From: a virus
DNA: 35,792 nucleotides
IMG/VR virus record: IMGVR_UViG_3300021130_000163
Coordinates: 1 to 35,792 of that record
Reading direction: 5' to 3' (one strand)
The position numbers and the translations under genes are program-made. Below are positions 3,002 to 16,378 of the stretch, piece by piece. Below the pieces are notes generated by a model that saw nothing but the letters and a program-made list of their open reading frames with translations, was not told where the DNA came from and made no database searches. Numbering within the stretch: position 1 is the first letter of the stretch; every line of letters begins with the position of its first letter.

Positions 3002-3394
3002 ATGTTTGAGAATTTAACTGATGATAATGTGATGTTATATGCTGCTAAGGTTTACGAGAAACCCTCGGCAATAATGAGTGAATTTGAAGAGGACTATAAT
3101 AGAATATTATATCTTAAACGATTATTGACAAAGTATCATACGACTGGTGTTTTGAAAGATCGTTTAATAATGAATCATATTGTATTACTTTATAATGTAT
3201 TTGGGATTGAAGCGGCGACTAGATTATTGTTTGTAAAATTAGAACAAAAAGATTATGAAGTGATAAAACCATTTTTAATTTTTTTAAACTTTTTACCTAA
3301 AGTGGTAAAAGGAATTAATGGTAGAGATATTAACACTGATGAAATACAACTGGACCAAAGAGCAATAGAATGTTTAAGAAATTTAAAGAAATAA
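3002..3394 (+). CDS. Small helical phage protein of unknown function
   Basis: A 130-residue, largely helical protein beginning MFENLTDDNVMLYAAKVYEK. I chose the ATG at 3002 because upstream in-frame residues overlap the previous coding region and read like shadow sequence, while the sequence from MFENLTDDN resembles a family I associate with marine T4-like phages, with early aromatic and acidic residues, then 'EEDYNRILYLKRLL' and 'LIMNHIVLLYNVFG'. There is no catalytic motif. It overlaps the following gene by 25 bases. Its place in a run of virion-type genes suggests an assembly or structural role, but the function is unknown. Confidence 0.65.
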   Translation: MFENLTDDNVMLYAAKVYEKPSAIMSEFEEDYNRILYLKRLLTKYHTTGVLKDRLIMNHIVLLYNVFGIEAATRLLFVKLEQKDYEVIKPFLIFLNFLPKVVKGINGRDINTDEIQLDQRAIECLRNLKK

Positions 3395-4833
3395 AAGAAC
3401 ATATAAAGAAAACCAAATTGGTTCCAGGATCAAATCCACATAAATTAGCTAGTGTTCCAAAAGAAGTTTCTAGTGGACAATCTGGAATTTGGGACAGTCC
3501 GGACAGTTCAAAAAAAGACAAATATTCAAAAATTCATCAAGCAGCATATGTCCACGAAGATGGAGTAGCTGGTGGTGGAGGTGCTGCTGGAAGCGCAGCG
3601 GGCGGGATGGTAGCTGGTGTTAATCAAACTCCAGGTTCTCAATATAACGATCCTAATATTCCTTATGCAACTCAAAAGAAGAAGAAAAAAATGTTAAGAA
3701 GAAAAAGACCAATTATGGAAACTTTAATGAATTTTAAATCATTTTTAGCTGAAGCCAAAGCAGCCTCAGCTAAAAATCCAGCAGATTCTAGAGGAAAAAT
3801 TCATGAACTTCTAACCGCCTATCATTTAAACAATAAGAATCATGCTGAAGATTATAGAGTTGAAGGCAAAAAGCCTGAACACATTTTACATCAACATGCA
3901 TCAGCATTGTTTGGTAAAAACTATCATAAGCATCCTGAATTTCTAAAAATGCATGAGGCAGCTAAACAAGCTGCGCAGCACATTAGAGAACATTTAAAGA
4001 AACATCATGGAATTTCAGAAATTGGAAGAGTTGCTTGGACATCTCAAAAATCAGACCATAAGAAAGAAACTGGTGTTGATGATCCACTAAACAAAGCTGA
4101 TCTTATCGTTACAGGCAAACATAAAGGCGATCACCGTAAAGGTAAGAAAGTCGCGGTGAGCTTAAAATTTGGAAAGTTGAAGAAAACAAATTACAGCAAT
4201 CCTGGAGTAAAAACTCTAGAGAATTTAAGCAGTACTAAATTAACTCACCATACAGAAGAACACAAAAAATTATTAAATAAATTAGGAAATCCTTCTCACG
4301 AAGAATATAAAACTCATCCTAAACGAAAAGAAATAGAAGCAAGCAGCAAAAAAATGGCTCAGAATATGGCTTATAGTTATGCTGATGGTCTTAGTGAAAA
4401 GCTTCACCATAAAACTCAAAATAAACAAGATGAAAATTTAAAAGAGTACATTAGAAGATCTGTTGGTGGACATGGACACACTCCAGGTGGAAATGTTGAA
4501 CAAGGTAAAACACATTTACCTCATGTTTTTGCTAAAACTTCAACTGGTAGCGGTGAAGGTCATTCAACGCAAACTGGAGATATAGAACATCATGTTAACA
4601 ATTATTTAAGTCATTTCCATAATTTAAATGTTCAGCATACACCTGGACAAAGTTCTGTTGCTGTTATTGGAAATCATAGGAAAACAGGTAAAAGAATGGA
4701 AGTGCATAGAGTTTCTATCTATATGGGTGGAGCTCATGAGACTGCAAATCCTCGTGGAGCTGTAACATTAAGTTCAGAAAATCATAAAGATGTTGATACA
4801 TCAAAACCATATGGTGTTAAAAGTAAAAAATAG
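3370..4833 (+). CDS. Basic phage protein with possible PD-(D/E)XK-like nuclease domain
   Basis: A 487-residue His/Lys-rich protein in two parts. Residues 1-115 are low-complexity (Gly/Ala run at about 67-80, then a run of six Lys near 103-108). From residue 116 a fresh-looking N-terminus appears (METLMNFKSFLAEA), resembling T4 capsid-targeting peptides. Around residues 225-275, 'DDPLNKADLIV...KKVAVSLKFGK' has the spacing of Asp followed by a strand ending S-L-K, as in some PD-(D/E)XK nucleases. The acidic residue before x-K is replaced by Ser, so the call is tentative. The start overlaps the previous gene by 25 bases. It lies immediately upstream of the endolysin. An internal start at 3715 or 3727 could give a shorter product. 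Confidence 0.5.
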   Translation: MFKKFKEIKEHIKKTKLVPGSNPHKLASVPKEVSSGQSGIWDSPDSSKKDKYSKIHQAAYVHEDGVAGGGGAAGSAAGGMVAGVNQTPGSQYNDPNIPYATQKKKKKMLRRKRPIMETLMNFKSFLAEAKAASAKNPADSRGKIHELLTAYHLNNKNHAEDYRVEGKKPEHILHQHASALFGKNYHKHPEFLKMHEAAKQAAQHIREHLKKHHGISEIGRVAWTSQKSDHKKETGVDDPLNKADLIVTGKHKGDHRKGKKVAVSLKFGKLKKTNYSNPGVKTLENLSSTKLTHHTEEHKKLLNKLGNPSHEEYKTHPKRKEIEASSKKMAQNMAYSYADGLSEKLHHKTQNKQDENLKEYIRRSVGGHGHTPGGNVEQGKTHLPHVFAKTSTGSGEGHSTQTGDIEHHVNNYLSHFHNLNVQHTPGQSSVAVIGNHRKTGKRMEVHRVSIYMGGAHETANPRGAVTLSSENHKDVDTSKPYGVKSKK

Positions 4834-4844
4834 GAGTTTATTTT

Positions 4845-5477
4845 ATGTTGACAAAAGAGAAATTATTAGCAATCGTCCCAGGCGCAAAGCATAGCAATAT
4901 CGATCTAGATGTTCTATGTAATGATATGAATGAAGTTTTCGCTGACGAAAGCAACCAATTAAATACTGTAAACCGTCAAGCTGGATTCATCGCACAATGT
5001 GCTCATGAATCTGGAAATTTCTGCCATGCTGCAGAAAATTTAAATTACAAAGCTGCTGGTTTAATGCACGTATTTCCAAAATATTTCCCAGATGAGTTAC
5101 ATGCTTCAATGTACGAACATCAACCAGAAAAGATTGCCAACCGCATTTATGCTAATCGCATGGGTAATGGTGACGAAGCTTCTGGTGATGGATACAAATA
5201 TCGTGGTCGTGGATTCATTCAGTTGACTGGTAAAGATAACTATACCAAATGCGGACATGCAATCGGTAAGGATCTAACTATGGATCCAGATTATCTAACA
5301 ACTCCAGAAGGTGCATTAAAGTCAGCACTATGGTTCTGGAATGCTCATAACTTGAGCATGTTAGCAGACACCGATGATGTTCTTCATATGACTAAGAAGA
5401 TCAACGGTGGAACTATTGGTTTAGAAGAAAGAACTGCTCTTTATCATAAAGCTAAAGAAGTTCTATCGGCTGAATAA
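4845..5477 (+). CDS. GH19-family endolysin (chitinase-like lysozyme)
   Basis: A 210-residue protein of the glycoside hydrolase 19 fold used by many phages as peptidoglycan-degrading endolysins. The catalytic Glu lies in AHESGNF (Glu55), and the family block 'ANRMGNGD...GDGYKYRGRGFIQLTGKDNY' is present at about residues 102-132, followed by the C-terminal helices with ALWFWNAHNL. The length is a single catalytic domain, with no cell-wall-binding domain or signal peptide, so it would need a holin to reach the periplasm. A GGAG ribosome site lies about 6-10 bases before the ATG. The stop overlaps the next ATG (TAATG). It opens the lysis-related region, which continues with holin-like genes at 7874-8672 and spanins at 15627-16378. 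Confidence 0.93.
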   Translation: MLTKEKLLAIVPGAKHSNIDLDVLCNDMNEVFADESNQLNTVNRQAGFIAQCAHESGNFCHAAENLNYKAAGLMHVFPKYFPDELHASMYEHQPEKIANRIYANRMGNGDEASGDGYKYRGRGFIQLTGKDNYTKCGHAIGKDLTMDPDYLTTPEGALKSALWFWNAHNLSMLADTDDVLHMTKKINGGTIGLEERTALYHKAKEVLSAE

Positions 5478-7680: not shown

Positions 7681-7874
7681 TGTCAGTAGAACAAGATATT
7701 CAAAATCAAATTGATGGAGTTAAGGCTCAATTAGCCAATAACGAATTAACATCAGCAGAAGCTGTTGAATTTTTAAATGAACTGAAAGATGTTCAAGCAG
7801 CTTTAGGAACTGCTGATGCTGAAATTGCAGTTCGTTTAATTACAGAAGCAATACAAGTATTAGGCAGTGTGTAA
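7680..7874 (+). CDS. Small helical protein of unknown function
   Basis: A 64-residue acidic, fully helical-looking protein without Cys, signal or membrane segment. The heptad-like pattern of Leu, Val and Ile suggests a short coiled coil. It is translationally coupled on both sides (TAATG at the start and at the end), tying it to the lipoprotein before it and the membrane protein after it. I do not recognise a family. Confidence 0.6.
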   Translation: MSVEQDIQNQIDGVKAQLANNELTSAEAVEFLNELKDVQAALGTADAEIAVRLITEAIQVLGSV

Positions 7875-8098
7875 TGTCTTTCTTGGAAGTCATTGCGTCC
7901 ATTCATAAAGATGGAAGAGACGGCTCTGTTTCTTCAAAAAGAGTCGTCACAACTATTTCATTTTTATTATGCGCAGTTGCTTTCGTTGCTAATCTCTTTT
8001 GGGGCATAAAAGTTGCTGAATATATGTACAATTCAATGATGTCTATCACATTGGGTGGACTTGCAGCGACCGCTTCAGAGAAGTTTTCACCTAAATAA
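7874..8098 (+). CDS. Holin-like two-TM membrane protein
   Basis: A 74-residue membrane protein with a polar N-terminus (about residues 1-23, with a Lys/Arg pair) and two hydrophobic segments: about 25-45 (VVTTISFLLCAVAFVANLFWG) and about 50-66, ending in a charged tail. Small size, two membrane segments and a position downstream of an endolysin and among other small membrane proteins fit a class II-type holin. The sequence gives no direct proof of function. Coupled by TAATG to the preceding gene. Confidence 0.6.
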   Translation: MSFLEVIASIHKDGRDGSVSSKRVVTTISFLLCAVAFVANLFWGIKVAEYMYNSMMSITLGGLAATASEKFSPK

Positions 8099-8109
8099 TA
8101 GGATTAGAA

Positions 8110-8397
8110 ATGGATTTTGATGTAATATTTCAACTGATTGGCGATTTGGGTGCACCTGTTGTTGGTGCATTTGCCGCAGGTATATTCGTCCATTTCGTTA
8201 TTTCGTACATCCTTGAGAGTGCTTTGAAAGCTATCAGGGGTTTACAAGGAATTATTACAGCATTGGACAATCGCGTGAAAACAATGAATCACGATATTGT
8301 TCGTGTAGATGCTGTGGTTAGTACTGCTTTAGGATTACGTCCAGACTTGGAAAGAATCGCTAGAGCGGATGGTAAGAACGATGCTCGTAGAGATTAA
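8110..8397 (+). CDS. Small one-TM membrane protein (holin-like paralogue 1)
   Basis: A 95-residue protein with a short N-terminal amphipathic stretch (MDFDVIFQLIGDLGAP), one long hydrophobic segment (about residues 16-36) and a soluble helical tail with the pattern ALDNRVKTMNHDIVRVDAVVS. It resembles the next gene product in length, order of parts and spacing: an M-x-F-D start, a Gly-x-Pro before the membrane segment, then a helix ending in V-S. The two are probably tandem paralogues. The function is likely holin-like or an accessory in lysis; this is inferred from context. Confidence 0.55.
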   Translation: MDFDVIFQLIGDLGAPVVGAFAAGIFVHFVISYILESALKAIRGLQGIITALDNRVKTMNHDIVRVDAVVSTALGLRPDLERIARADGKNDARRD

Positions 8398-8399
8398 AA

Positions 8400-8672
8400 A
8401 TGCAATTTGACCCTGTACAAGCATCACAATTAGTTAAACAATATGGCTTTCCAACAGTTGCTGCTGTAGGTATGAGTTATTTTGTTTACTTCATTTATAA
8501 ATTCGTCACTGGCAAGCTGATGCCTTTAGTTGCCGAGACGAATGTAACTCTGATTGCTTTGATTGACCGAATTCGTATGCTAGACAATGATCTCATTAGA
8601 CTACAACAAAAAGTGAGTGTTGTTTTGCAGATGAAAGAGGATAGAAATAATGCAGATAAACCTAAAACTTGA
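8400..8672 (+). CDS. Small one-TM membrane protein (holin-like paralogue 2)
   Basis: A 90-residue protein with the same plan as its upstream neighbour: MQFDPVQ start, G-F-P before a membrane segment (about residues 17-37), and a helix with IDRIRMLDNDLIRLQQKVS matching the neighbour's NRVKTMNHDIVRVDAVVS. The C-terminus is polar. The two genes are separated by two bases. Together they may form hetero-oligomers, or serve as holin and antiholin, but nothing in the sequence distinguishes these roles. Confidence 0.55.
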   Translation: MQFDPVQASQLVKQYGFPTVAAVGMSYFVYFIYKFVTGKLMPLVAETNVTLIALIDRIRMLDNDLIRLQQKVSVVLQMKEDRNNADKPKT

Positions 8673-8784
8673 AGTGTTAAAGGTTGTCACTCTTGAGTTC
8701 TCTCTTTCTTCTGATAACAAGGAGAAAAAGGATGAACAAAAAGATACACCTAAGCCTGTTGCTGCTACTGACAACAAGTCTTAG
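8650..8784 (+). CDS. Possible overlapping 44-residue micro-ORF
   Basis: An ATG at 8650 opens a 44-codon frame that overlaps the end of the preceding membrane-protein gene by 23 bases and the start of the CsgF-like gene by 53 bases. Its product has a hydrophobic, strand-like N-terminus (MQINLKLEVLKVVTLEF) and a charged Lys/Glu/Pro tail. It fills what would otherwise be a 59-base gap, in a genome where gaps are rare. No ribosome site stands out and no family is recognised, so it may be a chance frame. Confidence 0.3.
   Translation: MQINLKLEVLKVVTLEFSLSSDNKEKKDEQKDTPKPVAATDNKS
8719..8724 (+). promoter_or_regulatory. Ribosome binding site for the CsgF-like gene
   Basis: AAGGAG lies 7 bases before the ATG at 8732. 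It fixes the start of the CsgF-like protein at MNKK, directly giving a signal peptide, in preference to an upstream TTG at 8684 that would put charged residues before it. Confidence 0.7.
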
Positions 8785-9205
8785 TGCATTCGCAGCTCCA
8801 CTACCAGACTTTGCATTTAAAAGTCCATCATTCAACGGTAATGGTTACGGCACATACGTTCTAACAATTGAGAACGAAGAATATACACGCCAACAACAAA
8901 TCCAACAAGCATTGTTGGCTGCTCAACAGCAAGCTAAAAACGATGCCGCTAACACTCCACTAAATCAATTCCTAACAAACTTAGAGTCTCGCATTCTTGC
9001 GCAGATTAGTCAGAATCTTGCCACAGCTATGTTTGCTGGTGGTTCAGGAACATCTGGCACAATGAACTTTCAAGGCAACACAATCTTCTGGCAGAATGAC
9101 GGTAAAGAAATTACATTGCAAGTAACTGACGCTTTGGGTAATGTCACTACAATTAATATTCCTCTTGGACAATGGAATATCCTATCGTCAGGAACTGGGG
9201 GATAA
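8732..9205 (+). CDS. csgF: CsgF-like curli secretion accessory protein
   Basis: A 157-residue secreted protein. Residues 1-21 form a signal peptide with a likely AFA/A cleavage. The mature N-terminus (DFAFKSPSFNGNGYG) matches the CsgF segment that in E. coli inserts into the CsgG pore (TFQFRNPNFGG type). Then follow a Gln/Ala-rich helix (about 52-72), the family helix 'PLNQFLTNLESRILAQIS' (76-93) and a C-terminal strand region with ITLQVTDALGNVTTINIPLG (127-146), as in CsgF of many proteobacteria. In bacteria CsgF couples the CsgG secretion pore to fibre nucleation at the cell surface. The gene sits directly upstream of csgG, with one base between them. Known function is from the family; activity in a phage-infected cell is inference. 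Confidence 0.85.
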   Translation: MNKKIHLSLLLLLTTSLSAFAAPLPDFAFKSPSFNGNGYGTYVLTIENEEYTRQQQIQQALLAAQQQAKNDAANTPLNQFLTNLESRILAQISQNLATAMFAGGSGTSGTMNFQGNTIFWQNDGKEITLQVTDALGNVTTINIPLGQWNILSSGTGG

Positions 9206-9206
9206 A

Positions 9207-10067
9207 ATGAATAAACTGATAATAGTTGCGGCGCTTTCGCTGCTGTCGGGTTGCGCAGGATTTCAAAAACTTGGACAAGCAACTGGTCATGAATTTAAAC
9301 CTCAAGTAGCACAAGAAAAGTTACAAAAAGAATTTGATATTCTTCCACCACCAGCTGGTCCAAAAGTTACTGTTGCAGTTTACAAGTTTCAAGATCTAAC
9401 AGGACAACGTAAGACCTCAGCAAACTTTGCTAGTTTCTCAACAGCAGTCACTCAAGGCGCTGAACCATTCTTAATCCATGCTTTACAAGAAGTAAGCAAA
9501 GGCGAATGGTTTGAAGTTGTAGAAAGAACAAACGTTGATGATTTGATCAAAGAAAGAACAATCATCAAACAAATGCGCGATGCTTATGATGGTAAAGATG
9601 CAAAACCATTGCCTCCACTACAATTCGCTGGAATTATTATAGAAGGTGGAATCGTGGGATATGATAGTTCTACTGAATCAGGTGGAATGGCATACAAATG
9701 GTTAGGAATTGGTCCACAAACACAGTACTCAAAAGACATTGTAACTGTTTCACTAAGAGCTGTATCAGTAAACAGCGGTAAAGTTCTTGCATCTGTAACA
9801 GTACAGAAAACAATTTATTCGACTGCGGATTCAATCGCAGCGCTAAAATTCTTCAAAGACGGCACTGCCGCATTTGAAGCTGAGACTGGCTTGACAATAA
9901 ATGAGCCAGGAACATTGGCAGTAAAAGCAACTGTGGAAGCTGCCGTTGTTGAATTAATCAAGGAAGGAGCGAAGAAAGAAGTCTGGGACTTCAAGTATCC
10001 TGCTCCAAGTCCCACTCCTTGGTGGAAATATGATGAATGGGATTTATCACACGCAAAGGTAAAGTAA
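9207..10067 (+). CDS. csgG: CsgG-like outer-membrane curli secretion pore
   Basis: A 286-residue lipoprotein. Signal and lipobox LLSGC put the lipidated Cys at residue 16. The CsgG core follows closely: VTVAVYKFQDLTGQ (54-67), FSTAVTQGAEPFLIHAL (77-93), WFEVVERTNVDDLIKERTII (101-120), IIEGGIVGYDSSTESGG (144-160), GIGPQTQYSKDIVTVSLRAV (167-186) and KTIYS (201-205). E. coli CsgG is 277 residues and forms a nine-subunit outer-membrane channel. At the constriction loop the Phe of the FSTAV block is retained, while the Tyr and Asn of E. coli appear as Ala and Ser by my alignment. The C-terminal tail (about 262-286) is Pro/Trp-rich. Upstream in-frame codons from 9141 are rejected because they precede the signal. 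Linked to csgF and to the curlin gene (1 base gap). Confidence 0.93.
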   Translation: MNKLIIVAALSLLSGCAGFQKLGQATGHEFKPQVAQEKLQKEFDILPPPAGPKVTVAVYKFQDLTGQRKTSANFASFSTAVTQGAEPFLIHALQEVSKGEWFEVVERTNVDDLIKERTIIKQMRDAYDGKDAKPLPPLQFAGIIIEGGIVGYDSSTESGGMAYKWLGIGPQTQYSKDIVTVSLRAVSVNSGKVLASVTVQKTIYSTADSIAALKFFKDGTAAFEAETGLTINEPGTLAVKATVEAAVVELIKEGAKKEVWDFKYPAPSPTPWWKYDEWDLSHAKVK

Positions 10068-10068
10068 G

Positions 10069-10902
10069 ATGAAAACAAGTAAATTAATTACCTTCGTTAT
10101 GGGTATAATAATTGCTTTTAATGTACTTGCTGGAGATAACAGCATTTATATTCAACAAGCTGGTGACAATGCCACTGTAAATATGACACAAGATGGGGCA
10201 GGCAACATTATTCAAGGTGTTCCAAGCGTAGGTTCTGGTTCAACAAACCCAGCACTTATTAATGGTAATAACAACACTGTAAATGTTACACAAACAGGTA
10301 CAGGCGACACTTTGAGTCTTGGTGTTCAAACTTCTGTTGCTAACGGAATTAGTGGTGGAAACATTTTTAACTATTCTGTAACAGGCAACAACTCGAATGC
10401 ATACATCGACAGTAATGCTAATGGTTTGGGCGTAAGCGCAAGTAACTCCATTACTGCAACACAAACTGGCAACAATTCATATTTTAATGCTAATGTTCTA
10501 GGAACAGCTAACGTTTTAAATGTGACTACTGCTGGTGGCTCATATAACAGTGTAACTGCGACTCAAAACGGTAATAACAATAATGACACAATTAATGTTT
10601 CTGGTGGTGGCAACAACACAATCAACATTGAACAAGGTATTGGCGGTTCAGCATTGGGTGGATTACAATCTGCACAATTTAGCTATAATGGTACTGTTAA
10701 TTTAACTGTATCTGGAGCAAGCAATACCGTTGACATTGGCCAAACAGGTAGCACAGGGTTTACTGACACAGCAACTATTTCATTAACTGGTTCAGGCAAT
10801 AGTGTGAATATTTTACAAAATGCAGCTATTGGCAACACAACAATCAGTTTGACAAGTGTCGGTTCAAATAACTCGTTCACATTACACACGAACGCTCACT
10901 AA
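10069..10902 (+). CDS. Curlin-repeat (CsgA/CsgB-like) amyloid protein
   Basis: A 277-residue secreted protein. A signal peptide (about residues 1-21, ending VLA) is followed by a mature protein rich in Asn, Thr, Gly, Ser and Gln and nearly free of charge. The first repeat (NSIYIQQAGDNATVNMTQDG) fits the curlin pattern S-x5-Q-x-G-x-x-N-x-A-x-V. Similar units recur with Q-x-G and N-N-x spacings (for example VNVTQTG, ITATQTG, VTATQNG, INIEQG, VDIGQTG and VNILQN), roughly a dozen strand-turn units. It is longer than E. coli CsgA or CsgB (about 151 residues). It directly follows csgG, as expected for a substrate of that pore. Whether it is the major fibre subunit or the nucleator cannot be told from sequence. 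Confidence 0.85.
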   Translation: MKTSKLITFVMGIIIAFNVLAGDNSIYIQQAGDNATVNMTQDGAGNIIQGVPSVGSGSTNPALINGNNNTVNVTQTGTGDTLSLGVQTSVANGISGGNIFNYSVTGNNSNAYIDSNANGLGVSASNSITATQTGNNSYFNANVLGTANVLNVTTAGGSYNSVTATQNGNNNNDTINVSGGGNNTINIEQGIGGSALGGLQSAQFSYNGTVNLTVSGASNTVDIGQTGSTGFTDTATISLTGSGNSVNILQNAAIGNTTISLTSVGSNNSFTLHTNAH

Positions 10903-10903
10903 A

Positions 10904-12034
10904 ATGAACAGAGGGGTATTAATTCTACTCCTTCTGTTTGCTTCTGTGAGTTATGCTTCTTTCGCAGGAATAGGTTCTATTACTGAACAAACAAATTCTC
11001 CTGGGACAATAAAAAGATCAAATCAAATTATTTCTGGAGTAAAAGGTTCTCCGATTGAAATGAATGATTCTGTTCAAACTCAAATCGGAAAACTTGGAAT
11101 ATTATTCGAGGATCAAACTCGCGTAGAAATTAATGAACACTCCAAATTAGTCATTGACGATTTCGTTTACGATCCAAAAAGCAAATCAGGTGGCAAACTT
11201 GGATTGAAATTCGCACAGGGAACTATGCGCTATGCTTCAGGTGCAATTGCTCATAATGATCCAAGCAGTGTAAAGTTGAACACTCCATCAGCCACAATTG
11301 GTGTTCGTGGTACTGACTTCTCAGCAACTGTTGATGAGTTCGGTGAAAGCACAATTATTCTATTGCCAAGCTGCCCTAAGAATTGGGTAGACATTGAACG
11401 CGATTGTAAAACAGGAATCATTGATGTGTACAATGACGCAGGTTTAGTTACACTTGATAAACCATTTCAAGGAACTAAAGTTGTTAATCGTAACATGCCT
11501 CCATTAAAGCCAACTACTTTGAATCTAACAGCGGACCAGATTAATAATCTTTTGATTGTTTCTCCACCACAAGAACTAACTCAAAAAGATAAGAAAGATA
11601 AAGGTGAACAAAAAAGCTACCACGCTGGTGACATGCTTGAAGTTGATTTTCTAAAACAAGACTTCCTAAAGAACGAATTAGCGCAGAATTTTTTTGGTGA
11701 TAATCCTCTAACACAACCATTGTTACAACAGAGCTTTCTAGAAGACATATTTGATATTTTGTCTAAACAGTTATTGCAAGATAACTCTGAGTTGTTAGCG
11801 AATTTATTGAATCCTGAAAATCAATTATTACCTGACTGGTTTAAAGAAAGTTTAGTTACAAAACAAGTAACCACATTAGAAGTAGATCTATGTAGAAATG
11901 ACGGCAGCAACGTTCAATGTGTTTATGTGCCGAAAGATCAAAATACATTGCTTGTACAAGTACAAGACGGTGTTACTATTAAAAATAGAGTAAATAGTGG
12001 TAAAAGTACAATTATAACATTGAGACAGAACTAA
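10904..12034 (+). CDS. FecR-domain periplasmic or surface protein
   Basis: A 376-residue exported protein. A signal peptide spans about residues 1-18 (LILLLLFASVSYA). A FecR domain covers about 40-165: GSPIEMNDSVQTQIGKLG, then a beta-rich segment with FEDQTRVEINEHSKL, and the family signature TPSATIGVRGTDFSATV near 125-142. Two Cys (SCPKNW, RDCKTG) follow and could form a disulfide. The C-terminal half is Leu/Gln-rich helical and ends in a strand region. There is no membrane anchor or partner sigma factor, unlike classical FecR. In many bacteria secreted FecR-domain proteins are encoded next to CHASE2 adenylate cyclases, as here with one gene between. The ATG at 10904 is chosen over an upstream GTG-type start because it places the signal at the N-terminus. 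Confidence 0.85.
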   Translation: MNRGVLILLLLFASVSYASFAGIGSITEQTNSPGTIKRSNQIISGVKGSPIEMNDSVQTQIGKLGILFEDQTRVEINEHSKLVIDDFVYDPKSKSGGKLGLKFAQGTMRYASGAIAHNDPSSVKLNTPSATIGVRGTDFSATVDEFGESTIILLPSCPKNWVDIERDCKTGIIDVYNDAGLVTLDKPFQGTKVVNRNMPPLKPTTLNLTADQINNLLIVSPPQELTQKDKKDKGEQKSYHAGDMLEVDFLKQDFLKNELAQNFFGDNPLTQPLLQQSFLEDIFDILSKQLLQDNSELLANLLNPENQLLPDWFKESLVTKQVTTLEVDLCRNDGSNVQCVYVPKDQNTLLVQVQDGVTIKNRVNSGKSTIITLRQN

Positions 12035-13317
12035 TGAAAAGATTATTTGCAGCATTACTATTATTGATTTGTTTTCCTGCCAAAGCAGATATTACTAACG
12101 AACATTTTAGTTTCAGTCAAGTCTTTGACGTACAATGGTACATCAGCGGCGGTGTATTGCATGCTTCAAGTTTCAATTATCTTTTTGCCAGCCAACCTTC
12201 TAATGCTAGATTGACTTCAAGTCAAACAGCAGCATATGCCAATGCTGGCGATTATATCGCATTCTTTCACAGTACAACTAATCCTGGAACTTATGGTTTA
12301 GGCGTTTATGATCCTAACGGAAATCTAGTTAGAGTATTAGATAACACTGGAACATTTACTGCATTGGCAAATGGCGCGATATTTTATAATGGTGCAGGAA
12401 TGTGGGGGACGTTGTTTACAACTTTACAGGGATACGCTATCGGTGGAAGTGGAAGCTGGACAGTTACTGTAAGTAATCCTTCTAACAGTTATATGCAGTC
12501 ATACACTCCAACCAACACACAGCCACTGGGTACTGGTCAAACATATACACCTACACCAACATATACAAGTGTAATTACATCTGCTGAGCAAACAAGATAC
12601 AATGCAGCTGAAGCTCGCCTCAATGCTTTAAGCGGAGATAGCATTTACATCTCACAATCCTCTGGTGGTGGGAATATTGTAAGCGTCATACAGAATGGTA
12701 AGAAAGAAAGCGTTGATGGTATTAATCAACAAAATGCGCAAATACAAGGTGGCGGTAATATCGTAACAGTCAATCAAGGTGATCCTGTTGCTTTATATGG
12801 TAACAATCTAATTGATTTGAGTGTCTTGGGAAGTTCAAATACATTGAACCTCAATCAAGGATACGATACAAATGGAAACTATACTGGCACTGATATGGGT
12901 GGACATTATCAATATGTTTCAATAAATGGTTCTGCGAACAATGTCACAACACAGCAAGAAGGTCAAAGTCAATATGGTGAAGTGAACATCACTGGGAACA
13001 ATAATACACAAATTATGGTCCAAACAGGATTCAATCATCAATTGTTCTCTATGATAAATGGTAACAGTAATACTATAAATACAATGCAGACTGGAGCTGC
13101 TGGAAACTTTCTTGACATTACGCTTTCTGGTGACGGGAACTCAGCTATTGTCAATCAAAGTGGGACCACACAAAATAAAGCAACAATAAGTATAACAAAT
13201 GCGGGCGGTCCAGGCAGTGTCAATTTAACCCAAACTGGTGGGCAGGTTTATAGCATAAGCACAACTTGTGTAACTGCAGGAGGCTGTGGCACCGTTACTG
13301 TAAGACAAGGAAACTAA
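12034..13317 (+). CDS. Large curlin-repeat protein with extra N-terminal domain
   Basis: A 427-residue secreted protein. A signal peptide spans residues 1-18 (ending PAKA). Residues about 19-160 form a non-repetitive, beta-rich domain (FSFSQVFDVQWYISGG ... GDYIAFFHSTTNPGTYGLGVYDPNGNLV) that I do not recognise by family. A Thr/Pro/Tyr-rich linker (about 160-185) leads to curlin-type repeats from about 205 to the end (DSIYISQSSGGGNIVSVIQNG, VTVNQG, LNLNQG, INTMQTG, AIVNQSG, VNLTQTG, VTVRQGN). Two Cys near the end (TTCVTAGGCGT) could form a disulfide. The N-terminal domain could anchor the amyloid or bind a surface. It overlaps the FecR gene's stop by one base. Likely a second curli subunit, perhaps nucleator or anchor; the role is inferred. 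Confidence 0.78.
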   Translation: MKRLFAALLLLICFPAKADITNEHFSFSQVFDVQWYISGGVLHASSFNYLFASQPSNARLTSSQTAAYANAGDYIAFFHSTTNPGTYGLGVYDPNGNLVRVLDNTGTFTALANGAIFYNGAGMWGTLFTTLQGYAIGGSGSWTVTVSNPSNSYMQSYTPTNTQPLGTGQTYTPTPTYTSVITSAEQTRYNAAEARLNALSGDSIYISQSSGGGNIVSVIQNGKKESVDGINQQNAQIQGGGNIVTVNQGDPVALYGNNLIDLSVLGSSNTLNLNQGYDTNGNYTGTDMGGHYQYVSINGSANNVTTQQEGQSQYGEVNITGNNNTQIMVQTGFNHQLFSMINGNSNTINTMQTGAAGNFLDITLSGDGNSAIVNQSGTTQNKATISITNAGGPGSVNLTQTGGQVYSISTTCVTAGGCGTVTVRQGN

Positions 13318-13318
13318 T

Positions 13319-15361
13319 ATGAAGAAGATATTGTTAAGTCCTTGGACAGCCTTAATTACTTTAGCTGTAATGTTGGCAGTTCGCGTTGTAGATCCAACTT
13401 TCGTAGAAAGTGTTCGATTAAGATATTTCGATACACTGATTACCAATAAGAAACCCTCTCCCGAAGAAGTTCCAATCAACATCGTCAACATTGACGAAGA
13501 TGCATTGAACAAATATGGTCAATGGCCATTACCTCGTACTGAATACGCTAAGATCGTAAATGAATTGTATGCTCGTAACGCAGGACTTGTTGTTCTTGAC
13601 GTTATGTTTAGCGAACAAGATCGTTTAAATGGCGACAGTGCTTTGGCTTCTGTTATGATTCAACATCCAGTTGTATTGGTAAATGTACCGAGCGATAAAA
13701 CTAAGAATACTCCAAAGAAACCTGGAACTGCTGTAATCAACAGCGACTTCCAAGATCGCATCGTAAAGTATCCAGGGATTATTGCTAATATTCCATTGCT
13801 AGAACAATATGCATTTGGTGTTGGTACAATCAACACACTTCCTGAAATTGATGGCGTCAATCGCCGTGTTCCTTTGATCACAAGTGTCAATGGTAATCTA
13901 TATCCATCATTGGGTATGGAAATTATTCGTGCTGCTTCAGGTGACAGCACAACACAAATTAAATTAAATGAGCTTGGTGTTGAGAAAATGCGAGTGCCAG
14001 CATTTGGTCCAATCACCACAGATAATCTTGGTCGTATTTGGGTAGACTTCTCTACACCAATTAAAACAACTTCACTTACAAATCTACCAAAAGATTTCGG
14101 CAACAGTATTGTAATCGTTGGACCAACTGCTGCAGGTATTGCTAACCCAGTTCCTACTGCCGTTGGCGCTGTTTATCCGCATTATTTACAAGCACAAGTT
14201 GCAGCAACCATGATGAATGGTGTTGTAATTTCAAGACCAGACTACGCTGACGGATTAGAGTTGCTATTCGTTGCTATTTCAGGTATACTATTATTAGTTC
14301 TAACAAGGTGGACTTATGTCGGTTTGGGATCGATTGTTGTTATCGTTGGTGGTGCTGCGTATGGCAGCCACTATGCTTTTAGTAATCATCTTTTACTATT
14401 TGATATCACTCTCCCCATCGCAGCGACAATCCTTGTGTCACTCCACGCCTATGGTGTCAAGTTTGTCTCAGAATTTTTGCAGAAGCAACAAATAAAGAAA
14501 CAGTTCGGCACTTACTTGTCGCCAGCAATGGTTGAGAAGTTACAAAAGAATCCAGAGTTGTTAGCACTTGGCGGCGAATCAAGAGAACTGTCAATTATGT
14601 TTACTGATGTTCGCGGCTTCACAACTATCAGCGAACATTATGGTAAAGACGTTCAAGGTCTAACAAAGATCATGAATCGTTATATGACAGCAATGACTGC
14701 CAAGATTTTAGAGAACAACGGAACTCTTGACAAGTACATTGGTGATGCTCAAATGGCTTTTTGGAATGCTCCACTTGATGACGCAGAACACGCAAAGAAT
14801 GCTGTAAGAACTGCGATTGCTATGATGACCGACTTGGAGAATTTTAATGAGGAAATTGCTAAAGAAGGAGTTCCTGCTTTTGGGATGGGTCTTGGTATTA
14901 ATACTGATGTTGTTGTCGTGGGCAATATGGGTAGTAGTCAACGTTTTGACTATACTTGCCTTGGTGATGGAGTAAATTTAGCAAGCAGACTAGAAGGTCA
15001 ATCAAAACCATATGGTGTTAAGATTGTTCTTGGACCAAGAACTGCTGAATTGGTCAAAGACGAATTCCCAGTAATTGAGTTAGACTTACTTGCTGTTAAG
15101 GGTAAGACTGAACCAGTTAAAATTTATACTTTAGCACCATCTAATGATAGCATGGCTGATGCAATGCATGTTAAATTCCTAAAAGCATATAGAAAAGGTG
15201 ACTGGAAAGGTGCCAAGTTTTATATTAATGGCATGAAGAACGATGGATTGAAAACTGCATGGGGCGGTCAGATGGCTAAATATTATGACATGATGCTTGA
15301 GAGAATGGAAGGAAATCCTCCAGAAAATTGGGATGGCGTCTATAGAGCTACCTCAAAATGA
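13319..15361 (+). CDS. CHASE2-domain receptor adenylate cyclase (class III)
   Basis: A 680-residue membrane receptor. One membrane segment near residues 7-22 is followed by a periplasmic CHASE2 sensor (about 25-300, with NIVNIDEDALNKYGQWPLPR and GLVVLDVMFSE typical of the family), then three membrane segments (about 310-385), a linker helix and a class III cyclase domain (about 420-605). Catalytic residues are all present: metal aspartates Asp430 (FTDVRGF) and Asp476 (KYIGDAQ), adenine-selecting Lys472 and Thr546, and transition-state Asn553 and Arg557 (GDGVNLASR). The domain should therefore make cAMP from ATP. CHASE2 senses unknown periplasmic signals. The partner is plausibly the FecR-domain protein two genes upstream. 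Phage-borne intact receptor cyclases are unusual to my knowledge. Confidence 0.93.
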   Translation: MKKILLSPWTALITLAVMLAVRVVDPTFVESVRLRYFDTLITNKKPSPEEVPINIVNIDEDALNKYGQWPLPRTEYAKIVNELYARNAGLVVLDVMFSEQDRLNGDSALASVMIQHPVVLVNVPSDKTKNTPKKPGTAVINSDFQDRIVKYPGIIANIPLLEQYAFGVGTINTLPEIDGVNRRVPLITSVNGNLYPSLGMEIIRAASGDSTTQIKLNELGVEKMRVPAFGPITTDNLGRIWVDFSTPIKTTSLTNLPKDFGNSIVIVGPTAAGIANPVPTAVGAVYPHYLQAQVAATMMNGVVISRPDYADGLELLFVAISGILLLVLTRWTYVGLGSIVVIVGGAAYGSHYAFSNHLLLFDITLPIAATILVSLHAYGVKFVSEFLQKQQIKKQFGTYLSPAMVEKLQKNPELLALGGESRELSIMFTDVRGFTTISEHYGKDVQGLTKIMNRYMTAMTAKILENNGTLDKYIGDAQMAFWNAPLDDAEHAKNAVRTAIAMMTDLENFNEEIAKEGVPAFGMGLGINTDVVVVGNMGSSQRFDYTCLGDGVNLASRLEGQSKPYGVKIVLGPRTAELVKDEFPVIELDLLAVKGKTEPVKIYTLAPSNDSMADAMHVKFLKAYRKGDWKGAKFYINGMKNDGLKTAWGGQMAKYYDMMLERMEGNPPENWDGVYRATSK

Positions 15362-15626: not shown

Positions 15627-16121
15627 ATGTTGTTCTGGTTATTAAAGTTTTTACCTGCAATGTTGATTCATGGTTTCATGGGTCTGGCATTATTAGCAGT
15701 TGCACTGTCGTTTATTCCATTCGTGCCATATAAAATAGTTTTAAAATGGGGTGGAATCGCAGCAGTTGCTTTAGGATTATTCCTAGAAGGTTGCTTGCTT
15801 ACACAACAAGCATGGGAAGCACAAGTTGCTGCTCTACAAGATAAGATCAAAGAATCAGAAGCGAAAGCTGCTACGATTAATACTGAGATTGTAGAGAAAG
15901 TTGTAACTCAAGATAAAGTTATTAAAGAGAAAGGTGATCAAATCATTAAGTATATCGATCGCGAAGTTACAAAAGTTGATAGCACTTGTACTATACCAGA
16001 AGTTGTAATTAAAGTGCATAATGCTGCTGCTCTTAATCAATCGCTTGATGTAGAACAGCCATTAACACCAAGTACAGTTGTAGATACTTCAGCTCATAAT
16101 GCAGCGGCGGTGCCAAAATGA
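15627..16121 (+). CDS. i-spanin-like inner-membrane lysis protein (Rz-like)
   Basis: A 164-residue protein with two hydrophobic segments in its first 56 residues (about 8-30 and 35-56), followed by a long periplasmic-type coiled coil (about 60-125, EAQVAALQDKIKESEAKA ... EKGDQIIKYIDREVTKV) and a polar tail containing a single Cys (STCTIPE). This plan, with the downstream small lipoprotein overlapping its stop, is that of a phage i-spanin, which joins the inner membrane to an outer-membrane o-spanin and fuses them at lysis. Having two membrane segments and not one is a variation. The ATG at 15627 is used because it directly follows the preceding stop and starts the first hydrophobic segment. 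Confidence 0.75.
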   Translation: MLFWLLKFLPAMLIHGFMGLALLAVALSFIPFVPYKIVLKWGGIAAVALGLFLEGCLLTQQAWEAQVAALQDKIKESEAKAATINTEIVEKVVTQDKVIKEKGDQIIKYIDREVTKVDSTCTIPEVVIKVHNAAALNQSLDVEQPLTPSTVVDTSAHNAAAVPK

Positions 16122-16378
16122 AAAAAATAATCCCACTATTATTGATCTTATCAGGTTGCGCTACAGTTCCAGTAGAACGCCATTTTCCAGAAGCACCAAA
16201 AGAACTTATGGAAAAATGCGGAAATTTACAGACAATTGATAAGCAACAAGTTGTTTTTAGCGAGTTTTTAAAAACAGTTACAACAAATTACACTCAGTAT
16301 TATCATTGCGTTAATTTATTGAATGGTTGGCAAGATTGGTATGTTCAACAGAAACAAAACTTTGATTCTGTAAAATAA
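16118..16378 (+). CDS. o-spanin-like outer-membrane lipoprotein (Rz1-like)
   Basis: An 86-residue lipoprotein with the signal MKKIIPLLLILSGC, lipobox Cys14, then ATVPVERHFPEAPKELMEKCG, a Pro-containing stretch typical of o-spanins. Two further Cys are present. It starts four bases before the i-spanin stop (ATGA), the usual arrangement for a spanin pair. In lysis the lipidated protein sits in the outer membrane and contacts the i-spanin coiled coil. Confidence 0.8.
   Translation: MKKIIPLLLILSGCATVPVERHFPEAPKELMEKCGNLQTIDKQQVVFSEFLKTVTTNYTQYYHCVNLLNGWQDWYVQQKQNFDSVK

Follow-up and report, generated by a model that had tools for sequence, protein, structure and literature searches.

A phage curli cassette with an exchangeable head on its second curlin and a conserved membrane protein pair

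Why should a phage carry genes for curli secretion together with curlins and a signaling enzyme? The question is raised by a viral record fragment of 35,792 bases (IMG/VR record IMGVR_UViG_3300021130_000163, positions 1 to 35,792; hereafter, the window), where profile searches find phage genes all along, among them endolysin, primase, thymidylate synthase, both ribonucleotide reductase subunits and a RuvC-like resolvase. Here, six abutting open reading frames (ORFs) on the plus strand, at 8732-15361, encode CsgF, CsgG, a curlin-repeat protein (CurA), a FecR-domain protein, a second curlin-repeat protein (CurB) and a CHASE2 adenylate cyclase. Curli modules of aquatic phages have been known since 2020, with their function lacking. 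We propose, with a probability of roughly 0.6, that the cassette exports an adhesive amyloid with swappable recognition heads and is watched by a periplasmic sensor. Exchange of the head of the second curlin provides sequence evidence that separates the proposals made for this module, pointing to the binding of a variable target and away from a lysis pore or nutrient uptake.

The identity and order of the six genes, initially proposed from the DNA letters without database searches (the sequence-only reading), were borne out: five have curated Pfam support above the cut-off, and the exception, CurB, is identified by its homologues and a motif count. The coordinates were likewise correct, with CsgF starting at the ATG at 8732 and FecR at 10904. 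Two genes directly before csgF, denoted H1 and H2, belong with this set. Two surveys, selected on the cyclase (at least 591 viral loci) or on H1 (at least 592) and hence silent on the number of phages without the cassette, recovered the same gene order in more than 100 contigs, as well as in the phages HTVC008M and Melnitz. H1, H2, CsgF, CsgG, a curlin, FecR and the cyclase stand together in 109 of 169 sequences, many of the others being cut by contig or locus ends; the largest contig with the cassette (L166; L numbers denote the loci or contigs compared in the survey) spans 372 kb. In nearly all pairwise estimates, the ratio of nonsynonymous to synonymous substitution rates (dN/dS) is 0-0.3 for all eight genes, that is, they evolve under purifying selection. 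Because the order is conserved and the genes are so constrained, the cassette, with its candidate substrates and signaling enzyme, is best regarded as a functional unit and not a stray gene, as had been claimed. A misassembly at about 8700 or 15360, which the sequence-only reading had named as a possible refutation, is rejected, because the same order recurs in all these contigs, the right-hand junction (cyclase, small membrane gene, spanin-like lipoprotein, primase) is found again in L007 and, there without a detected spanin, in L008, and G+C content shows no jump.

The module as such is already published, so that the claim of an unreported complete set failed. The csgF and csgG genes of pelagimyophages were described in 2020 (PMC7029224), in line with the sequence-only reading, which credited some marine myophages with csgF/csgG homologues but not with the complete set. 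The full set, CsgF, CsgG, CsgA/B, FecR, a second CsgA/B and adenylate cyclase, was described in 2022 in podo- and myophages (PMC9599517). This pelagiphage type VIII secretion system module, from HTVC008M and GOV2.0 phages, has the order seen in the window, with one or two small genes ahead. The annotations of HTVC008M and Melnitz show an identical gene set and order, PHROGs already contains most of the cassette proteins, and a T4-like phage genome with a link to Bacteroidetes has been found to contain curli genes (PMC7198788). The window cyclase, 38% identical to that of HTVC008M, marks the two as distant kin, and the relatives of the window include phages of up to 372 kb, among which the module is widespread. 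New relative to the literature that we found are the modular adhesin design of CurB and the recognition of H1/H2 as a phage-specific membrane pair. The text of PMC9599517 mentions no PA14 or lectin heads, and we found no mention of curlin heads, or of jumbo phages with the module, in the open literature, which, being confined to open papers, is weak evidence of absence.

The AlphaFold2 (AF2) model of CurB shows a compact all-beta head at residues 24-165, a low-confidence linker and a beta-ladder tail. The tail contains 16 curlin-ladder motifs compared to 4.0 in shuffled sequences, a count that none of 5000 shuffles reaches (the motif is our own regular expression, with shuffled sequences as the control). 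The window CurB itself has no Pfam curlin match; it aligns to homologues that do, the best of these at 1.8e-9 (L067), and Curlin_rpt is detected in 22 of the 55 CurB homologues. For CurA, the ladder motif occurs 17 times compared to 6.7 in shuffles (p 0.0008), and no long form of this first curlin was found, its maximum among the loci being 347 amino acids (aa). Motif counts and homologues were used for the window curlins because a single-repeat bacterial curlin profile, also tried, failed to tell them from shuffles. In front of the tail, Pfam recognizes PA14 in 9 of the 55 CurB proteins (best 8.1e-15), F5/8C in 5-6 (best 1.5e-11) and GLEYA in one (5.5e-5), which makes a glycan the probable head target in many phages; CurB of the cultured phage HTVC008M combines PA14 (2.7e-6) with Curlin_rpt (5.2e-8). 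Clustering sorts 83 CurB sequences into headless forms, singletons and five head types with more than one member: 26 are short and lack a head, 18 have an unnamed head typified by GFESGNYTNW, 14 have PA14, another 14 form the cluster of the window, where some members carry an extra F5/8C domain, and the fourth and fifth types have 5 and 2 members, respectively. An initial clustering was discarded, the common linker having merged all types.

Related phages swap this head freely, with 26-30 or more changes. The window CurB has a head 56% and 54% identical to those of L067 and L130, with tails at 34%, and shares 70% tail identity with L040, where the head is of another type. The five-row clade that includes the window has four head states, and, among cyclases that are 75-85% identical, the head differs in 35 of 63 pairs. 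At least 30 head changes are needed on the cyclase tree, at least 28 on that of FecR and at least 26 on that of the CurB tail, where the least possible number is 8 and shuffled labels give about 42. Because the cassette genes recombine with each other, no single tree counts these changes exactly; the three trees nevertheless agree on repeated change. Bacterial curli operons, similarly to those of the phages, keep csgF, csgG and the curlin genes together, but the sampled bacterial curlins have no such heads: four phage head profiles matched none of 65 bacterial curlins from Alpha- and Gammaproteobacteria and Bacteroidota.

The phages exchange these heads much as they exchange tail-fibre tips, which points to changing selection on the target. 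Under the reading that we prefer, the infected cell would be turned into a secretor of adhesive functional amyloid. The outer-membrane pore CsgG, with CsgF, would export both curlin-repeat proteins, CurA serving as the plain fibre subunit and CurB as an adhesin subunit, with the tail joining the fibre and the head binding a target, which might be kin or other cells nearby, particles, or glycans on the surface of the infected cell itself. The secreted FecR protein would probably monitor the envelope or the export step and act on the periplasmic CHASE2 domain, which would switch the cytoplasmic cyclase, with H1 and H2 as membrane partners. In this way, the phage would cause infected cells to adhere to selected surfaces or neighbours. 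An analogous design is known in yeast, where Flo1-type flocculins join an N-terminal PA14 lectin to amyloid-forming repeats in cell-cell adhesion (PMC8398270), although Flo1 is eukaryotic and wall-anchored, and homology of the repeats is not shown. The export side has the components of type VIII (curli) secretion, namely, a CsgG lipoprotein pore, CsgF and a curlin-repeat substrate. The lipobox Cys is kept in all 121 CsgG proteins compared; the E. coli constriction residues Y51, N55 and F56 correspond to S, S and F in the window, which hence departs from the E. coli triad, and the F56 position is F or L in 118 of the 121. We offer only tentatively a fuller version, in which the cassette provides diversifying recognition outside the virion, the secreted amyloid, its lectin-like head traded between phage lineages in the manner of receptor-binding tips, capturing neighbours or particles under the control of FecR-CHASE2 and the membrane pair, with cyclic AMP (cAMP) acting without a known receptor in SAR11.

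The putative sensor appears to have a bacterial background of its own. The phage FecR protein carries a single FecR domain behind its signal peptide and lacks the cytoplasmic anti-sigma part, and its AF2 model (mean predicted local distance difference test score 85) places the FecR domain at residues 24-205 and a six-strand domain at 319-376, in a numbering that is one too high, as the modelled stretch begins a codon early. The best fold in PDB is the PupR cell-surface signaling domain (2e-4). Thus, the FecR domain and the PupR signaling fold are shared with FecR/PupR anti-sigma regulators, whereas the phage protein differs from these in being secreted, in lacking the anti-sigma part and in having an extra C-terminal beta domain; the modelled layout is not that of an iron regulator. 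A C-terminal strand of this protein with a nearly invariant Gln (NRVNSGKSTIITLRQN) resembles a curlin repeat, and the C-terminus may attach to the fibre. In the cyclase, the catalytic residues D430, D476, N553, R557 and K594 are present, and the D/D/R/K set is found in all scored phage copies; with the metal Asp pair, Lys and Asn/Arg in place, the window protein is a predicted class III adenylate cyclase. In place of the transition-state Asn (N553), 21 of 79 phage cyclases have Ser (motif YDILGDMVS; for example, L118, L120, L135 and kin), and these may be weakened or altered enzymes. Of 11 phage records, none contains a cyclic-nucleotide-binding domain of the CRP-type cAMP receptor kind, and of 78 SAR11-family genomes, 5 do; in hosts without one, a cAMP effect would require another receptor. 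Of 30 alphaproteobacterial loci, taken with only 1.5 kb of flank, at least 4 have a FecR gene beside a CHASE2 cyclase, and no FecR, CHASE2 cyclase or H1/H2 was found in 8 sampled alpha- and gammaproteobacterial curli loci. As the bacteria sampled keep FecR-CHASE2 pairs separate from curli operons, the phage cassette looks like a union of two bacterial modules; the alternative of a bacterial origin for the whole eight-gene set finds no support in the sample, where the modules are apart and H1 is found in only 7 bacterial loci, mostly with the phage cassette. As to the cyclase gene itself, L031 and L033 are 94% identical in the cyclase, 52% in FecR and 38% in CurB, which indicates that this gene is exchanged independently of the others. 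A free-standing homologue of the cyclase C-terminal tail, of 100-128 aa and often near CsgF, is also encoded in 13 cyclase loci and some further ones (for example, L009:4053-4439, L018:4809-5108, L026:17968-18333, L133:17058); it might be a competitor or regulator of the cyclase.

H1 and H2 travel with the curli genes in both orientations. The pair is present in 70 of 83 surveyed sequences, with one of each type in 68 of these 70, and the pairing holds even where the genes lie on the other strand beyond the cyclase. In several pairs, H1 is 100% identical in amino acid sequence at a synonymous divergence (dS) of about 1. Among 84,980 bacterial and archaeal genomes, H1 was found in only 7 loci, nearly all contigs of metagenome-assembled genomes and most with the phage cassette, so that, by its sequence distribution, this is a phage-specific conserved pair in need of a function. 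These loci (L084-L090) are on contigs binned as Burkholderiales, Pirellulales, Rhodobacteraceae, Flavobacteriaceae and Pelagibacter; being likely phage contigs in the bins, they do not prove hosts. H1 and H2 are probably the "histidine kinase, sometimes two" of PMC9599517, because they occupy the same position in HTVC008M and Melnitz. In the phages sampled here, however, they resemble membrane coiled-coil proteins: they match no histidine-kinase or holin family in Pfam and no PHROG lysis family, H1 has only coiled-coil matches in PDB, and HisKA is absent from 12 phage records. Assignment as histidine kinases and as proven holins was accordingly rejected. In 55 nonredundant loci (for example, L120:10457-10654), but not in the window, H1 and H2 are separated by a same-strand gene for a 65-aa soluble protein. 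In four loci (L095, L099, L105 and L090), H1/H2 are found without a nearby cassette. In L095 and L099, an apparent CsgF signal-peptide remnant lies directly behind H2 (L095:10548-10763; L099:10548), suggestive of decayed cassettes, so the cassette can be lost with the pair retained, and H1/H2 may hold a role of their own. In L099, the remnant is fused to a metallophosphoesterase frame.

Several observations weigh against an exported adhesin. The window head matches no Pfam family, PA14 and F5/8C included, and a Foldseek search with the full CurB model finds no PDB fold below 0.001 for it. CurB is absent from 41 of 124 loci with FecR, some of them cut by contig ends; with about a third of the FecR loci devoid of CurB and 26 of 83 CurB proteins short and headless, the heads are not essential. 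CsgG passes unfolded chains, and a head of about 150 residues might not get through. As noted from the DNA alone and confirmed by searches of the window, nine large viral records, HTVC008M and Melnitz, there is no CsgE, in which these phages differ from bacterial curli systems; CsgE is not essential for curli (PMC7029224). Melnitz cultures show no clumping (PMC9004378), a result tempered by the fact that Melnitz, with the gene order of the window, has a headless second curlin. For the same reason, HTVC008M offers the better test, and the question can now be addressed in this cultured phage, which encodes a PA14-curlin fusion under the label "hypothetical protein" (AGE60352.1).

The strongest argument for an exported adhesin is the repeated swapping of binding-type domains, the outcome expected of selection on a changing target and one that a lysis or uptake pore does not require. 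Of the roles suggested by the sequence-only reading, adhesion is therefore favoured by the exchangeable CurB head, a feature which that reading had missed, and an outer-membrane pore that helps lysis becomes less likely. In the most developed form of the latter idea, which extends the proposal for Melnitz, where the operon was read as a substrate-free pore and lysis regulator (PMC9004378), CsgG and CsgF would depolarise or open the outer membrane, H1/H2 would be a holin pair and the cyclase would trigger the timing. The position of the window cassette between endolysin and spanins, and the lysis genes next to H1/H2 in L015 and L148, fit such a device; nesting in a lysis region, claimed for the window, is seen there and nearly so in L007/L008, L015 and L148, but is not general, a window-type endolysin lying within 4.5 kb of H1/H2 in only 7 of 139 nonredundant loci, a count made with narrow lysis profiles built from few sequences that will miss divergent spanins and endolysins. 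Moreover, H1 is far more conserved than is usual for holins, and two curlin proteins with exchanged binding heads would be left unexplained, so we consider this account unlikely.

Exclusion of superinfection, whereby headed curlins would coat the infected cell and block adsorption of competing phages, was suggested in PMC9599517, and surface export with variable heads would suit variable receptors; nothing separates this possibility from adhesion to others, and the heads would need to fit the surface of the host itself; we regard it, too, as improbable. A nutrient or iron uptake pore, with FecR as the iron regulator, draws on the FecR annotation in PMC9599517 and on the mention of uptake in PMC7029224. 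However, curlins and heads would be pointless in such a pore, and FecR, with its signal peptide, lacks a cytoplasmic anti-sigma domain, so that this role is very unlikely. That a module of bacterial origin passively hitch-hikes in these phages, without any role today, is hardly credible: the decayed cassettes in L095 and L099 imply that the module is dispensable, but the low dN/dS nearly throughout the eight genes and the order conserved in more than 100 contigs speak for maintenance. An exported adhesive amyloid with a swappable head thus remains our preferred reading.

Table 1. Cassette genes, CurB parts and neighbouring lysis genes in the window
Feature	Position	Strand	Basis
H1, type 1 of pair: 95-aa membrane and coiled-coil protein, ends IARADGKNDARRD	8110..8397	+	phrog_18771 9.9e-27
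H2, type 2 of pair: 90-aa membrane and coiled-coil protein, conserved LIDRIRMLDNDLIRL core	8400..8672	+	phrog_18771 1.3e-30
CsgF homologue with signal peptide	8732..9205	+	Pfam CsgF 7.5e-16; phrog_35372 5.3e-49
CsgG homologue, lipoprotein pore	9207..10067	+	Pfam CsgG 2.8e-46; E. coli CsgG (PDB) 1.4e-41
CurA, plain curlin-repeat protein, candidate major subunit	10069..10902	+	Pfam Curlin_rpt 1.5e-6; ladder motif count
Secreted FecR-domain protein, C-terminal beta domain	10904..12034	+	Pfam FecR 3.8e-9; AF2 model
CurB: signal peptide, all-beta head, linker, curlin-repeat tail, conserved C-terminal Cys pair	12034..13317	+	AF2, motif test, homologues
CurB head, residues 22-165, unnamed all-beta type	12097..12528	+	common to L067 and L130
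CurB curlin-repeat tail, residues 198-427	12625..13314	+	AF2 beta ladder; 70% identity to L040 tail
CHASE2 class III adenylate cyclase (predicted)	13319..15361	+	Pfam CHASE2 2.5e-40, Guanylate_cyc 4.7e-18; catalytic domain matched by solved adenylate cyclases, e.g., CyaB 1.5e-29
Endolysin (GH19), neighbour outside conserved cassette	4845..5477	+	phrog_181 1.9e-76; Glyco_hydro_19 2.7e-12
Small membrane protein, better holin candidate than H1/H2, neighbour	7874..8098	+	membrane character from sequence
i-spanin-like Rz, neighbour	15627..16121	+	phrog_8821 Rz-like spanin 5.5e-5
o-spanin-like Rz1 lipoprotein, neighbour	16118..16378	+	phrog_2425 1.5e-6; phrog_456 Rz-like spanin 0.0021

Beyond the cassette, two large ORFs of the window, 4-1815 and 3370-4833, have no PHROG match, and the latter has no Pfam match either. 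Consensus promoters are not in excess in the window (39 compared to 32.2 by chance); terminator-like sites number 16 compared to 6.2 in shuffles, none of them marking a clear boundary. Some of the sample numbers look like those of freshwater lakes, which may be a source of these phages. As to the flanks, the sequence-only reading was right about the endolysin and the spanin-like pair, whereas its "holin-like" genes at 8110-8672 (H1 and H2) are no more than candidate holins. Homologues of the small membrane protein at 7874-8098 are encoded just behind the cyclase in L007 and L008.

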